Positions 15,994 through 23,682 of a stretch of 64,000 nt of DNA are shown piece after piece. Position 1 is the stretch's first letter; each line of letters begins with the position of its first letter. The translations under genes and the position numbers were made by a program. The stretch lies in contig JAOTTS010000009.1 of the NCBI GenBank assembly GCA_029864335.1, positions 1-64,000 on the forward strand, written 5' to 3'. The notes beneath the pieces were generated by a model that was not told the DNA's origin, made no database searches, and worked only from the letters and a program-made list of their open reading frames with translations. Source of the stretch: Candidatus Nitrosopumilus sp. (GTDB lineage Archaea; Thermoproteota; Nitrososphaeria; Nitrososphaerales; Nitrosopumilaceae).

Positions 15994-16483
15994 ATTATAA
16001 TTAAAGCAGATGGCAGCAAAGTTTTCTTCAATCCTAATAAGATCATCTCAACCTGTATGAGATCTGGAGCAAGCAGGGATGCAACTAAGAGAATCCTCAA
16101 AAAAATTAGGGGTCACATTTATCGTGGAATGGACACGGGATATTTACAAAATGGTATTATCTGCATTAAGTGAAGAAAAAGGAGGCGCAGTATTAAAACA
16201 AAAATATCAGCTAAAAGATGCAATTGAATTAGCCCCAGCAGATGATCTATTTGTGAAAACTGGATTTTCTCTCCATATTGATCCTTTACTTTTACCTTCT
16301 ATCATGAGTAAAAAGAAAGCAGTTGGCGCAACCCATCTTGCAGTCGATATTCCAACTGGAAGAGGGGCAAAGATGAAAACAACAGGGGAAGCTGATCTTC
16401 TTGCAAGAGACATCATTGAACTTGGTATCAGATTAGGAATTCTTTCTTTTTTGATGAGGAAAGGTAATTTGACTCACTCATGA
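15994..16483 (+). pseudogene. Chimeric remnant: ATP-cone fragment joined to AMP phosphorylase fragment
   Basis: From 15994 one frame reads an ATP-cone domain (IIIKADGSKVFF, then GASRDATKRILKKI, then HIYRGMDTGY). A frameshift near 16138 continues it as DIYKMVLSALSEEKG and KYQLKDAIEL. Without a break the frame then becomes part of an archaeal AMP/thymidine phosphorylase (APADD, SIMSKKKAVGATH, IPTGRGAKMKTTGEA, LARDIIELGIRLG) and ends. Neither part is complete and no proper start exists. Confidence 0.7.
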
Positions 16484-16569
16484 ATATATTGGAGATTTCA
16501 CATTTTTTTATTACTAAGAATAAAATCAGAAATGAAAATCATGTCATGTGTTTAATTATTATTTTTACG

Positions 16570-16576: not shown

Positions 16577-16605
16577 CATGGGCTGGATTTCGATTTAGCA
16601 CAATG

Positions 16606-16668
16606 CACGGAAACGTGGGGTATTAACCCAAACGATAAACTTCGGTTTGACGTTTTCACGATTCCGTG
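16606..16668 (+). ncRNA. Predicted compact three-way-junction RNA with UUCG tetraloop
   Basis: 63 nt that pair almost completely. The closing stem joins 16606-16612 with 16662-16668 (7 pairs), then an A-A mismatch, then 16614-16617 with 16657-16660 (4 pairs). Inside are a GGG/CCC hairpin (16618-16629) and an arm 16630-16655 with ten pairs, one A-A mismatch and a C-UUCG-G tetraloop at 16641-16644. A run TTTT follows at once (16669-16672). The UUCG loop favours the plus strand. No family recognised; hand-folded. Confidence 0.55.
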
Positions 16669-16765
16669 TTTTAAAAATTAAATCACTATACGCATGTGCA
16701 AACTTTTATTTCCAATTCTGGTAAATTTGTCTCTAGTTTAATTACTTATATTGCACTTTTAATGC

Positions 16766-16978
16766 ATGAATTCTCAATCACAAAAACAGATTGATGATAT
16801 AATGTATGAAACAAATGAGAAAATTTCTGCCATTGTAAATGAAATCCGAGATATCAGATTTTCCAAAATGACTGAAAACGATAAACAAACAAAATGTGAT
16901 AAATTAAGAGAAGAGTTTGAAAAAGTCATGTCTGAAGAAGGTAGAAAAATAGAGGAAGTAATGAAAGAATGCCGATGA
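16766..16978 (+). CDS. Small coiled-coil protein
   Basis: 70 aa, almost fully helical and highly charged (KQIDDIMYETNEKISAIVNE, then EEFEKVMSEEGRKIEEVMKE). A TATA-like ACTTATATT lies about 20 nt before the ATG, so it probably has its own promoter. No family recognised. Confidence 0.55.
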   Translation: MNSQSQKQIDDIMYETNEKISAIVNEIRDIRFSKMTENDKQTKCDKLREEFEKVMSEEGRKIEEVMKECR

Positions 16979-17002
16979 AAATGGACGATATTGACCCAGA
17001 TT

Positions 17003-17377
17003 ATGAGACTGAAAATAGATCAAGTAGGTGTTATTGACCCACTTACAGGTGTGGTTTTATTCAAAGATGAGAGAGTTGAATTTCTAGTGTCTGGGTTTTC
17101 ATCCGAAGTTACAGGCTTTATCTCCAATTTCCTAAAAGAAAAAAGAGAAGATCCACCTACAATATATCTTCTGGTTGAACAAATTTGTGAAGAAAATGGA
17201 CTTCTTTTAGTCAAAGTCAAAATCTATGAAAGTGGAGGTATCTTTAGAGCAAACCTGTATTTCGCTGGTAAAAAAGACATGGTGTTTAGAAATTTTAGGG
17301 CATCCGATGCAATAGCTTTGGCAACGTATTATCACATCCCAATTCTAGTGAGAGAATCAATGTTAAAGAAAAAATAA
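17003..17377 (+). CDS. Bifunctional-nuclease-like (BFN/DUF151) protein
   Basis: 124 aa from ATG 17003 (TTG at 16991 would add four residues). The C-terminal RASDAIALATYYHIPILV matches the conserved end of DUF151 proteins (usually PSDAIALALR..PI.V), preceded by a beta-strand region. The family includes plant BFN nucleases and archaeal/bacterial proteins of unclear role. Follows the coiled-coil gene by 24 nt. Confidence 0.7.
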   Translation: MRLKIDQVGVIDPLTGVVLFKDERVEFLVSGFSSEVTGFISNFLKEKREDPPTIYLLVEQICEENGLLLVKVKIYESGGIFRANLYFAGKKDMVFRNFRASDAIALATYYHIPILVRESMLKKK

Positions 17378-19151: not shown

Positions 19152-19205
19152 GCATGTCACAGGATTATTCTGAGAGTATAAATCTGAGTATGGATATTTT
19201 TGAAC

Positions 19206-19625
19206 ATGGGTAAAATTCTGGTTCCTATTGATGGGTCTCTTAATTCTGTAAGAGGACTAGAAAAAGCAATTGACCTTGCAAGAAAAACAGATTCAACTAT
19301 TACATTGCTTCATGTTGCCATGCTTCCACCAATACATATTGTTGGTCATCCATTAGATAAAGTAAAAAGATCCTTGGCAAAAAAAGCTCATAAATTCATC
19401 AAAGATGCAGAAGACCGATGTATCAATGAAAATATTCAATCCACGACCAAATTGATTTATGGCTCTGATCCTGCATATGATATTGAGCAATTTGCGCGTA
19501 AATACAGGCATGACATGATTGTAGTTGGCGCAAAGGGAAAAAGTACTCTAAAGCGCCTCTTTTTGGGAAGTGTTTCTAGCTATCTTGTTCAAACTACAAA
19601 GACGCCAGTAACTGTGATAAAGTAA
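19206..19625 (+). CDS. Universal stress protein (UspA family)
   Basis: 139 aa from ATG 19206; TTG at 19200 is an alternative. KILVPIDGS at the N-terminus, and VVGAKGKSTLKRLFLGSVS with the ATP-binding G-2X-G-9X-G(S/T) pattern. Cytosolic nucleotide-binding stress protein; starts a run of stress genes ending at 23682. Confidence 0.9.
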   Translation: MGKILVPIDGSLNSVRGLEKAIDLARKTDSTITLLHVAMLPPIHIVGHPLDKVKRSLAKKAHKFIKDAEDRCINENIQSTTKLIYGSDPAYDIEQFARKYRHDMIVVGAKGKSTLKRLFLGSVSSYLVQTTKTPVTVIK

Positions 19626-19886
19626 TCAACAGTATCTTGGAAATATACACATGAGGTTCAAGTGGATGGATATTTTTACAGAAATGCAGAAAAAATAAAA
19701 TCATAAAGATAAATAAGGTCCCAAAATTGTTTTTACAACATGTTATAGATGACTCGTTTCAATAGATGATTTCTTTCTCACTACTCTGAATTTTCAAAAT
19801 TCTCAAAATATACGAGAACACGCAAATGTTTTTACCATAAATAAAAAAATTCAGAGCGACATCTAGTCTGATGGGGATTATCATGG

Positions 19887-20663
19887 ATGAATATCATGTT
19901 AGAAAATCTACGTTTTTCTTTTAATTGTAAGATTGTGAAAAATAATGACTTGGAACTTGCAAAAATAAGCCCTCAGGAGAAGACATTACTGGTAGGATTT
20001 CCAAGCAATGGTCTTGTTGGCACTTTTTCAATATCCTACCTGATTCATCATCTAAAGATGAAGTATATTGGAGATGTTGAAGTATCAGATCTTCCTTCAA
20101 CGTTATTTGTAGAAGAGGGGGAAATTTTAGCCCCAATCAGAGTCTACAATAAAAATAATCTTTTTGTGATAATTTCAGATGTTCCATTTGATCAGTACTT
20201 GGCAGAGAAATTTGCACTTGCAGTTCATGCGTTTTGCAAAGATCATACAATAAAGAAAATAGTACTTGTCAGTGGTATGGAGTCAGTTAACCAAAAAGAA
20301 GATGGTCCAAAAATTTATGGTCTTGTAACACATCCGATCTTAGAAAGTAAACTTTACGATAATCAAATTCCAAAATTTTTAAATGGTTCAATTTTTGGGA
20401 CAGACGCTGCCATAATTTCAGTTTTTAGAAAAACAAACATTCCTGTAATGGTTTTGTATGCAGAATGTCATTCATTCTTCCCAGATCCCGAAGCATCAAT
20501 TATCGCAATAGTCACACTAGCAAAAATTCTAGATATTGAAATAGACATAAAAGATATTCAAAATAAAATAGACACACTTCGAATACAGCATAGAAACCTA
20601 ATGGAAGAAACACTTCGAACATTACAAGAAAAGAAGACAAGGGCTCCACAGATTTACAGGTGA
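19887..20663 (+). CDS. PAC2-family protein (proteasome assembly chaperone-like)
   Basis: 258 aa. VGFPSNGLVGTFS, ISDVPFDQYLAEKFA and YGLVTHPILE match the PAC2 family, which includes proteasome assembly chaperones and archaeal homologues. The C-terminus is a charged helix. Four nt separate it from an Hsp20 gene, suggesting co-transcription and a protein-quality-control role. Confidence 0.8.
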   Translation: MNIMLENLRFSFNCKIVKNNDLELAKISPQEKTLLVGFPSNGLVGTFSISYLIHHLKMKYIGDVEVSDLPSTLFVEEGEILAPIRVYNKNNLFVIISDVPFDQYLAEKFALAVHAFCKDHTIKKIVLVSGMESVNQKEDGPKIYGLVTHPILESKLYDNQIPKFLNGSIFGTDAAIISVFRKTNIPVMVLYAECHSFFPDPEASIIAIVTLAKILDIEIDIKDIQNKIDTLRIQHRNLMEETLRTLQEKKTRAPQIYR

Positions 20664-20667
20664 TTTA

Positions 20668-21054
20668 ATGAACAATTTCGATAAGTTTGAATTCAGAATG
20701 GCTTTTCCCATGATTAGTTCATTATTTGATGATATAGAACAAAGAATTCTTTCACCACTATCGTGTCTGAGAGAGTTTGACAATTATTGGATGTTAGAAT
20801 TTGATCTTCCACTGGTGGATAAAAAAGATATTGACGTCACTTTTGATGAAAACATCATAAGTATCAAGGCAAAGCTCAAGGAAGAATATTCTGAAGAAAA
20901 ACAAGGCAATATCATAAAGTTTGAATATTTTAAAAAATCAATCTCATTGCCTGAAAGAATAAATGTTAAAAAAACAACTGCCAAATTCCAAAAAGGAAGA
21001 TTAGAAATAAAAATTCCAAAAAAGATAGTCGGTCATTCCATCAAAATCAATTAG
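20668..21054 (+). CDS. Small heat shock protein (Hsp20/alpha-crystallin)
   Basis: 128 aa. Alpha-crystallin domain with FDLPLVDKKDIDV, ISLPERINV and GRLEIKIPKK, where the usual G-x-L motif reads GRL. Prevents aggregation of unfolded proteins. The canonical C-terminal I-x-I anchor reads IKIN at the very end. Probably in an operon with the PAC2 gene. Confidence 0.88.
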   Translation: MNNFDKFEFRMAFPMISSLFDDIEQRILSPLSCLREFDNYWMLEFDLPLVDKKDIDVTFDENIISIKAKLKEEYSEEKQGNIIKFEYFKKSISLPERINVKKTTAKFQKGRLEIKIPKKIVGHSIKIN

Positions 21055-21267
21055 CATTTAGTGGATAAAATAATGGCATTATTTACGGAGCAAGTTTTTT
21101 TGCAAAAGTGGTTTTTCCACTTAATGCAATACCGACCGTTAACACATAATCCATTTACATCATTGTTAGATCAACTAATTACAGGTTTTTAATGAATTAG
21201 AAAACAATTCAAGACGACATACACATAATGATGACAAACTAATTTTCATATCTTGAAATCTGTTTTC

Positions 21268-22914
21268 CTATTCCATCCCCATTCCGGGCATGCCTCCCAT
21301 TCCTCCTTGAGGTGGAGCAGATGATCTTGATGATGCAACAACGTTATCGATTCGCAGTATCATGTTTGCAGTCTCAGTAGCTGACTTTATTATCTGCTCT
21401 TTTACCTTGACTGGCTCTATTATGCCTAGTTTCTCAAAATCTGCAATTATTCCATTAATTACATCCACGCCAGTGAATTTCTCTCCTTTGCTCTGTCTTG
21501 ACCGTAATTGCGTAATTGTATCAATAGGATTCATTCCAGCATTTCTTGCAAGTGCAAGTGGAATGGATTCCATGGCGTCAGCAAACTTTTCAACTGCAAG
21601 CTGGTCCCTCCCAGAAAGTGACTTTGACCAATCTCTGAGTTTTAGTGCAATGAATGCCTCAGGGGCTCCGCCGCCATAGACTATCTTTGGTTTTTCAATT
21701 ACATCCTTTACAACCATCAATGCATCATGCATTGACCTGTCTGCCTCATCAATCACTCTTTGAGTGCCACCTCTTAGCAATATGCTGATTGCCTTTGGAT
21801 TCTTGCATCCTTCAATGAACACCCAATTGTCCTCCTCAACTCTTTTCTCCTCCACATTTTCTGCCAGACCCAACTCTGTATCATTTAAATCATCAACTCT
21901 TCCCACTATTCTGCCTCCAGTGGCTTTTGCAAGTTTTGTCATGTCACTTTCCTTGATTCGTCTAACTGCAAGTATTCCCTCCTTGCTCAGATAATGCTGA
22001 ATAATGTCATCTATTCCCTTTTGGCACAAAACAACATTAGCGCCAGTTGATTTAATCTTGCTTGCCATATCTTTGAGCATCTGATTTTCTTCTTCCATGA
22101 ATGACTTTATCTGGTTGGGGGTAGAGATGTTTAGCTTTGCTTCAAACTCTGTCTTTTTAATCTCTAGGGCCTCATTGATTAAAGCAATCTTTGCATTCTC
22201 AATTCTTCGCGGCATGCCGCTATGAACTATTTCCTTGTCAAGTATGATACCACTTACTAACTCACTGTCAGAAATTGAACCCCCCGTCTTTTTTTCTATC
22301 TTTATGTTGTCAAGATTTACCTTGAATATTCCATTTTTCTCTTCAATGACGGCCAATACTGCATTGACTGCCAGTTTGGCAAGATCAGTTGCTTCAATTG
22401 ATACAAGCTTTGTCTGCATTGACGTGTTTGCAATCTTTTCAAGTATTTCCTTGTCTTTTGGTTCAAAGTTTATTGTAATTTCAGTCAAAAATTCCATTGC
22501 CTTCTTTGAGGCCTTTTTGTAACCCTCGGCAATTATTACTGGATGAATGTCATCATCAATTAATGATTCTGCCTTTTCAAGCAGAGCCCCTGCCAAGACA
22601 ACTGAAGATGTTGTACCATCTCCCACCTCACTATCTGTAGCTTTGGCTACTTCCACCATCATCTTTGCAGCGGGATGCTGCACGTCAATCTCTTTTAGAA
22701 TGGTTGCACCATCATTTGTAATCGTAATGTCCCCGATTGAATCTACAAGCATCTTGTCCATCCCTCTTGGTCCAAGGCTTGTCTGAATAATTTCAGCAAT
22801 TAGTTTTGCTGCCCTGATGTTGTTTCTTTGTGCATCACGTCCGCGTGATTGTCTTGTTCCTTCTTTAAGCAAAATTATAGGAACACCCTCCGGTGTTGTT
22901 CCAACTTGAGACAT
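21268..22914 (-). CDS. thsA: Thermosome subunit (group II chaperonin)
   Basis: 548 aa. [35 protein letters not shown] and GDGTTS are group II chaperonin motifs, and a GGMGGMPGM tail closes the protein. ATP-driven folding chamber in the cytosol. A TATA-like AATAAATATAT at about 22934-22946 lies 20-30 nt before the ATG, so the mRNA is probably almost leaderless. Faces the Hsp20 genes on both sides. Confidence 0.97.
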
Positions 22915-23208
22915 TAGATTACCTAGTTTTGTTTTGATATATTTATTGCAATGATATGATTTTCATTTTTGAAACCATGTCATTTTGATTTCAAAATAAA
23001 GAGATATCCAACTTTATTACATCTGATGATAGATTAAACCTAGACGGTAAAAATCCTGTGTTGATTCATTTATGTGCAAGCCATATTTCAATTAAAGTTT
23101 GAGATTAGATTGGGATCCTTTTTTATTAAAACTAGACAACAGGAAGACAAAAATCATAATTGATAATCTACAGAAAGTACAAATCCATTTTTTGATATAT
23201 TGTTCTCA

Positions 23209-23682
23209 ATGAATACTGAAAACAATGACAAAGAGAGAAAAGAGGTTGTACCATTTTGGCGTTCAGGATTTGGCGAACTAGACAAAGTTTTTGACAACTT
23301 TAAGCGAGATTTTGAGCATGCATTTGCAACAAAACCCCTTCATCTGTTTGACGCCACAACAGCATGTGATTTGGTAGATGAAGGAGACAGGTTTGTAGTT
23401 ACTGCAGACATGCCCAGAATAAAGAAAGAAGAGATCAACCTTAACGTGGGTGATGACTATATCGATATCTCAGCCGAACACAAGGAATCCGAAGAAGAAA
23501 AGAAGAAAAAATACGTCAGAAAAGAACACAGTGAAATATCGATTCATCGAAGGATGTCACTTCCTGAGAGGGTAAAGCCATCAGATGTTAAGGCTAAACT
23601 AACCAATGGAATTCTGACTGTAGAGATTCCAAAGGAAAAGCCAACACCCCAACCAAAGACTACCAAAATCAACATAGAGTAA
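23209..23682 (+). CDS. Small heat shock protein (Hsp20)
   Basis: 157 aa. N-terminal DELDKVFDNF-like region (ELDKVFDNFKRDFE), then the crystallin domain with VTADMPRIKKEEI, MSLPERVKPSDVKAKLTNGILTVEIP (motif GILTVEIPK) and a C-terminal Pro/Lys tail ending IN(I)E. ATG 23209 chosen; TTG 23200 would add three residues. Different in length and tail from the copy at 20668. Confidence 0.9.
   Translation: MNTENNDKERKEVVPFWRSGFGELDKVFDNFKRDFEHAFATKPLHLFDATTACDLVDEGDRFVVTADMPRIKKEEINLNVGDDYIDISAEHKESEEEKKKKYVRKEHSEISIHRRMSLPERVKPSDVKAKLTNGILTVEIPKEKPTPQPKTTKINIE

Follow-up and report, generated by a model that had tools for sequence, protein, structure and literature searches.

The RNA described here resembles the archaeal intergenic sRNAs, a general class treated in two reviews (PMC5867862, PMC3432209), in being short, intergenic and non-protein-coding, with a promoter of its own assigned by inference. 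What sets it apart is its definition by a rigid, conserved fold of several helices in place of a segment that pairs with targets. Another archaeal ncRNA whose fold is conserved, and for which no function is known, is Tan1 from marine group II Euryarchaeota (PMC5069720); at 229 nt, in another phylum and with a complex structure of its own, it is set apart by its description rather than by sequence. Archaeal C/D and H/ACA guide RNAs are also small and stable, but their box features are mostly missing here: C (RUGAUGA) and D (CUGA) boxes occur together in only one of 47 sequences, and 14 of the 47 have an ACA in their final 20 nt while the others have none there, and we rejected both assignments. 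The hammerhead shares the arrangement of three helices around a small junction, yet no hammerhead model of Rfam gave a match with E relaxed up to 5.

Searches with Rfam 15 over the whole 64-kb stretch of DNA analysed here (the window) gave no match at the gathering threshold and, with E relaxed up to 5, only chance-level snoRNA and FasX matches below the cut-off. Six diverged homologue loci had no Rfam match at E ≤ 1, and ARAGORN detected no tRNA or tmRNA in the window or in six homologue loci. These results agree with an earlier reading made from the letters alone (the sequence-only reading), which recognized no known family and discounted a hammerhead: no match rose above chance level, and none was to a hammerhead at E up to 5. 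Few cells on Earth are as abundant as ammonia-oxidizing archaea, and our literature searches yielded neither a description of this RNA nor one of any lineage-specific regulatory RNA in these organisms. The RNA is a new family within a known general kind, the small structured non-coding RNAs.

Folding of positions 16606–16668 (+ strand) revealed a three-way junction as both the minimum-energy and the centroid structure, at −24.7 kcal/mol. Dinucleotide-shuffled controls averaged −13.3 ± 2.8 kcal/mol (z −4.06) and 0/200 were as good, and the computed structure is the one that had been drawn from the letters, an 11-pair stem with an A-A mismatch, a GGG/CCC hairpin and a UUCG-capped arm. Fold and alignment together delimit three elements on the + strand. 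The closing helix P1 joins CACGGAA A CGUG (16606–16617) to CACG A UUCCGUG (16657–16668), that is CACGGAA/UUCCGUG, an A·A mismatch and then CGUG/CACG. Hairpin P2 is GGGU[AUUA]ACCC (16618–16629). The P3 arm (16630–16655), which in the window reads AAACG-A-UAAAC[UUCG]GUUUG-A-CGUUU, ends in a C(UUCG)G cap, and its distal ACNNNGGU is the conserved part. The 63 nt are unique in their own genome and intergenic, lying between an ORF that ends at 16483 and one that starts at 16766. Folding by itself leaves the strand undecided, as the reverse complement gives a good fold too (z −4.75).

Within the genus, blastn identified four clear relatives at 77–81% identity. A first covariance model built from five sequences, followed by two later models, found matches in 45–47 of the 250 genomes searched from the host family, the GTDB family of Nitrosopumilus, Nitrosarchaeum and Nitrosotalea, with a final count of 47/250. 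We aligned 46 distinct homologue sequences, with pairwise identity down to 40%, and scored 18 core pairs. Substitutions that break the stems, which the sequence-only reading had named as refuting its proposal, are not what these relatives show: standard pairs fill 97.8% of core-pair cells, and 10 of the 18 pairs show double compensatory changes, so that the covarying homologues for which the sequence-only reading had proposed a search do exist. Double-change cells numbered 62 against 15.3 ± 2.9 after shuffling, a count that none of 500 shuffles reached, and sliding the 3' partners lowered pairing to 31–49%. In P1, seven of nine counted pairs carry compensatory double changes and the outer pair alternates among G-C (27), C-G (16), G-U (2) and U-A (1). 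P2 is paired in 99.5% of cells with an invariant U-A closing pair (46/46), while P3 keeps its closing C-G in all 45 rows with letters there and has double changes in two pairs. Nearly all homologues fold by themselves into the same junction, and eight full-length ones, that of the window included, have fold z-scores between −4.0 and −7.9. The alignment contains 73 G-U cells and only 2 A-C cells; read from the other strand, the G-U cells would turn into A-C mismatches, which identifies the + strand as the functional RNA. On this comparative sequence evidence, we regard a real RNA gene, as opposed to a chance structure, as nearly certain.

The predicted transcript is longer than the junction. 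The sequence-only reading had set the 5' end at 16606 and a TATA box, probably meaning TATATTA, about 27 nt before the junction; both placements are probably wrong. The box whose position is conserved, in 30/30 homologues with the additional hairpin described next, is the TATA-like TTTAATTA at 16551–16558 (+), and the junction is preceded by that 5' hairpin, P0 (16582–16599, +; GCUGGAU[UUCG]AUUUAGC, supported by fold and homologues), which begins about 29 nt downstream of the box. Archaeal TATA-to-start spacing, combined with the constant box-to-helix distance, predicts a transcription start at 16580 (+), give or take 2 nt. Directly 3' of P1 lies the T-run already noticed in the letters (16669–16672, +), a probable terminator, and many homologues likewise have a short stretch rich in T after P1. 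From the box-to-P0 spacing, the window transcript is likely to span about 16580–16672 with P0 included, a 93-nt RNA with a folding z of −4.39. A predicted promoter and a predicted terminator of its own, as befits a structured ncRNA gene, are thus both present.

Thirty of the 46 homologues have P0 on the 5' side of the junction. Its stem sequence is largely replaced between genera (GCAUUAAA/UUUAGUGC, GUACAAGA/UCUUGUGC, GUGCAGGA/UCCUGCAC and GAGUCAAA/UUUGAUUC), and its loops are frequently UUCG-like or GNRA-like. Nitrosotalea and two further genera (g18 and g19) lack it. Where P0 is present, a TTTA-type box stands 25–31 nt before its first pair (mean 28.5, sd 1.4; 30/30); where it is absent, a TATA-like box stands 29.6 ± 1.1 nt before P1 (16/16). 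A box at a fixed distance from the structured 5' end is therefore found in 46/46 homologues, with the qualification that boxes were chosen by motif, which biases the spacing toward motifs about 30 nt away where there were several, most sequences having had one candidate. Box and first paired base have thus shifted together, which is consistent with a transcript that begins where the structure does, and the link between P0 and promoter position offers a clear natural example of an RNA gene whose 5' end changes in step with its fold.

The genes around the RNA point to a possible physiological setting. Within about 10 kb of RNA loci, Usp genes occur at 2.17 per 10 kb versus 0.03 in controls and CBS-domain genes at 1.96 versus 0.05, where the controls are 400 kb of stretches from nine of the RNA-bearing genomes and the Usp and CBS profiles were built from near genes, which favours the RNA loci in this count. 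Hsp20, bifunctional nuclease, thermosome and phosphoribosyltransferase genes also recur nearby. Of the 16 loci that have a Usp gene close by, five are syntenic loci of one genus (g16); at several loci of the window's genus, and at the g5 locus, the surrounding 5 kb contain no Usp gene. Whole-genome Pfam counts gave 11–17 Usp matches in seven non-window genomes of 1.6–2.0 Mb, 29 in the window genome and 1–27 in further genomes of its genus; within the genus, Usp number did not differ visibly with presence of the RNA. Because the RNA lies within Usp/CBS/Hsp20 gene islands, its location suggests a role in stress.

The independent small-RNA gene proposed by the sequence-only reading is upheld by covarying homologues, strand-specific G-U tolerance, a promoter at fixed distance, the T-run and variable flanking genes. 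As the best explanation, we propose a single-copy, stand-alone ncRNA gene of the Nitrosopumilus/Nitrosarchaeum/Nitrosotalea family, whose own TATA promoter would start transcription at P0, or at the junction itself where a lineage lacks P0. Its transcript would end at the T-run right after P1, giving an almost wholly paired product of about 75–95 nt. This product would act in trans as a compact protein-binding RNA, serving as the core of an RNP, a scaffold or a decoy in stress physiology, with putative protein contacts at the P2 hairpin (GGGUNNURACCC) and the tip of P3 (ACNNNGGU). These two elements and mid-P1 hold the most conserved letters. Trans action and protein binding are proposed because nearly all of the RNA is paired, these letters are conserved and no conserved single-stranded seed is present; the suggestion of a protein partner comes from loops that are conserved and from single-stranded sequence that is not. 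Transcription, trans action, a protein partner and a stress role are what we infer as most likely from sequence, and the full statement that combines a stand-alone, trans-acting, protein-bound RNA with stress physiology seems to us evenly poised between right and wrong. More tentative, and rather doubtful at present, is the broader idea that the RNA may be the founding member of a new archaeal RNA class, an RNP core or regulator of ammonia-oxidizer stress physiology with an optional P0 module whose gain and loss is matched by a promoter shift. With 46 aligned homologues, a covarying structure, predicted ends and genomic context in hand, experiments can be designed at once.

Several other readings were weighed. 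A trans-acting antisense sRNA, whose loops or 5' leader would pair with mRNAs such as those of Usp or CBS genes and alter their translation or stability, would suit a stand-alone gene among stress genes with exposed P0, P2 and P3 loops. We nevertheless consider it unlikely, as hardly any unpaired sequence is conserved: the P0 and P3 loop letters are variable, and the conserved letters sit in paired elements.

A putative self-cleaving or ligand-sensing domain of a new type might be read from the compact three-way junction with its invariant loop positions, but one copy per genome and the failure of relaxed Rfam searches to bring up any ribozyme or riboswitch make it quite improbable, and a T-run directly after P1 together with varied downstream genes argues against a riboswitch. 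The hammerhead and other known self-cleaving ribozymes were rejected since no Rfam model of such a ribozyme matched, relaxed thresholds included.

The neighbouring genes bear on whether the structure could instead be a cis-acting leader, attenuator or terminator of an adjacent gene. At 13 of 21 loci the nearest downstream gene shares the strand of the RNA, at some of them within 60 nt, as such an element would predict; it lies on the opposite strand in the other eight, and its kind varies (Usp, BFN, PNPOx-like, ADH, CBS, thermosome), so that no fixed gene class follows and a riboswitch or cis-regulatory leader was set aside. Adjacent genes in general differ in kind and orientation between genera, yet the RNA keeps its own promoter geometry, and we judge a cis-acting element very unlikely.

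The distribution of the RNA is patchy. Each carrier has a single locus, save for weak matches of the palindromic reverse strand, and as a tendency genomes give either a strong match or none. Named records with homologues belong to Nitrosopumilus, Nitrosarchaeum and Nitrosotalea, including Ca. Nitrosotalea bavarica. In samples of 400 genomes of the class and 398 of the phylum, covariance-model matches were confined to the host family, and 14 near-complete genomes of the window's genus gave none even with laxer filters. A pattern match in a 'Proteobacteria' MAG (L126) was dismissed for want of covariance-model confirmation, and inspection by eye led us to discard the weak matches at L041 (G036) and L139 (G097) as false. 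Two loci of the window's genus, L039 and L040 (G088 and G041), represent a divergent subtype, CACAGAAACAUUGGGU..., with an altered P3 arm and GGAAUU replacing GGUAUG.

Loss can be followed in g16, where most carriers have the RNA gene flanked by two Usp genes. Shortened syntenic copies are found in G214 (L174, ~2029–2109) and G221 (L173, ~1155–1255); the former still has its promoter, a hairpin resembling P0 and some of P1, with P2 and P3 gone, and either copy may be a reduced functional RNA or a pseudogene. Between the Usp genes of G216 and G227 no recognizable trace of the RNA was seen, and G020, from the window's genus, carries a decayed copy. That most genomes of the genus lack the RNA, and that decayed copies and traceless losses occur, shows that it is dispensable, and repeated loss explains the patchy distribution without a mobile carrier. 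Such a carrier is also unsupported because neither viral contigs (exact pattern) nor plasmids and phages (blastn) gave a match. Patchy presence and differing neighbours might otherwise suggest a DNA-level element, such as a cruciform, a recombination or integration site or a small mobile element. We hold this to be highly improbable, given that the excess of G-U over A-C cells fits a single-stranded RNA of one strand and not a cruciform, that the promoter is conserved and the locus single-copy with no plasmid, phage or viral match, and that much of g16 has it at the same place, with a Usp gene to either side. A chance fold without function is virtually excluded, being refuted by compensatory changes across sequences as little as 40% identical.

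The window itself contains, downstream of the RNA, a stress-gene cluster at 19200–23682 with a Usp gene (by Pfam) and two Hsp20-like, one thermosome and one PAC2-like gene (by eye from the ORF list). Closer to the junction lie a 70-aa coiled-coil-like ORF with no Pfam match (16766–16978) and a bifunctional-nuclease-domain gene (16991–17377); both recur near the RNA in G010, G032, G108 and G118, in differing orders and strands.
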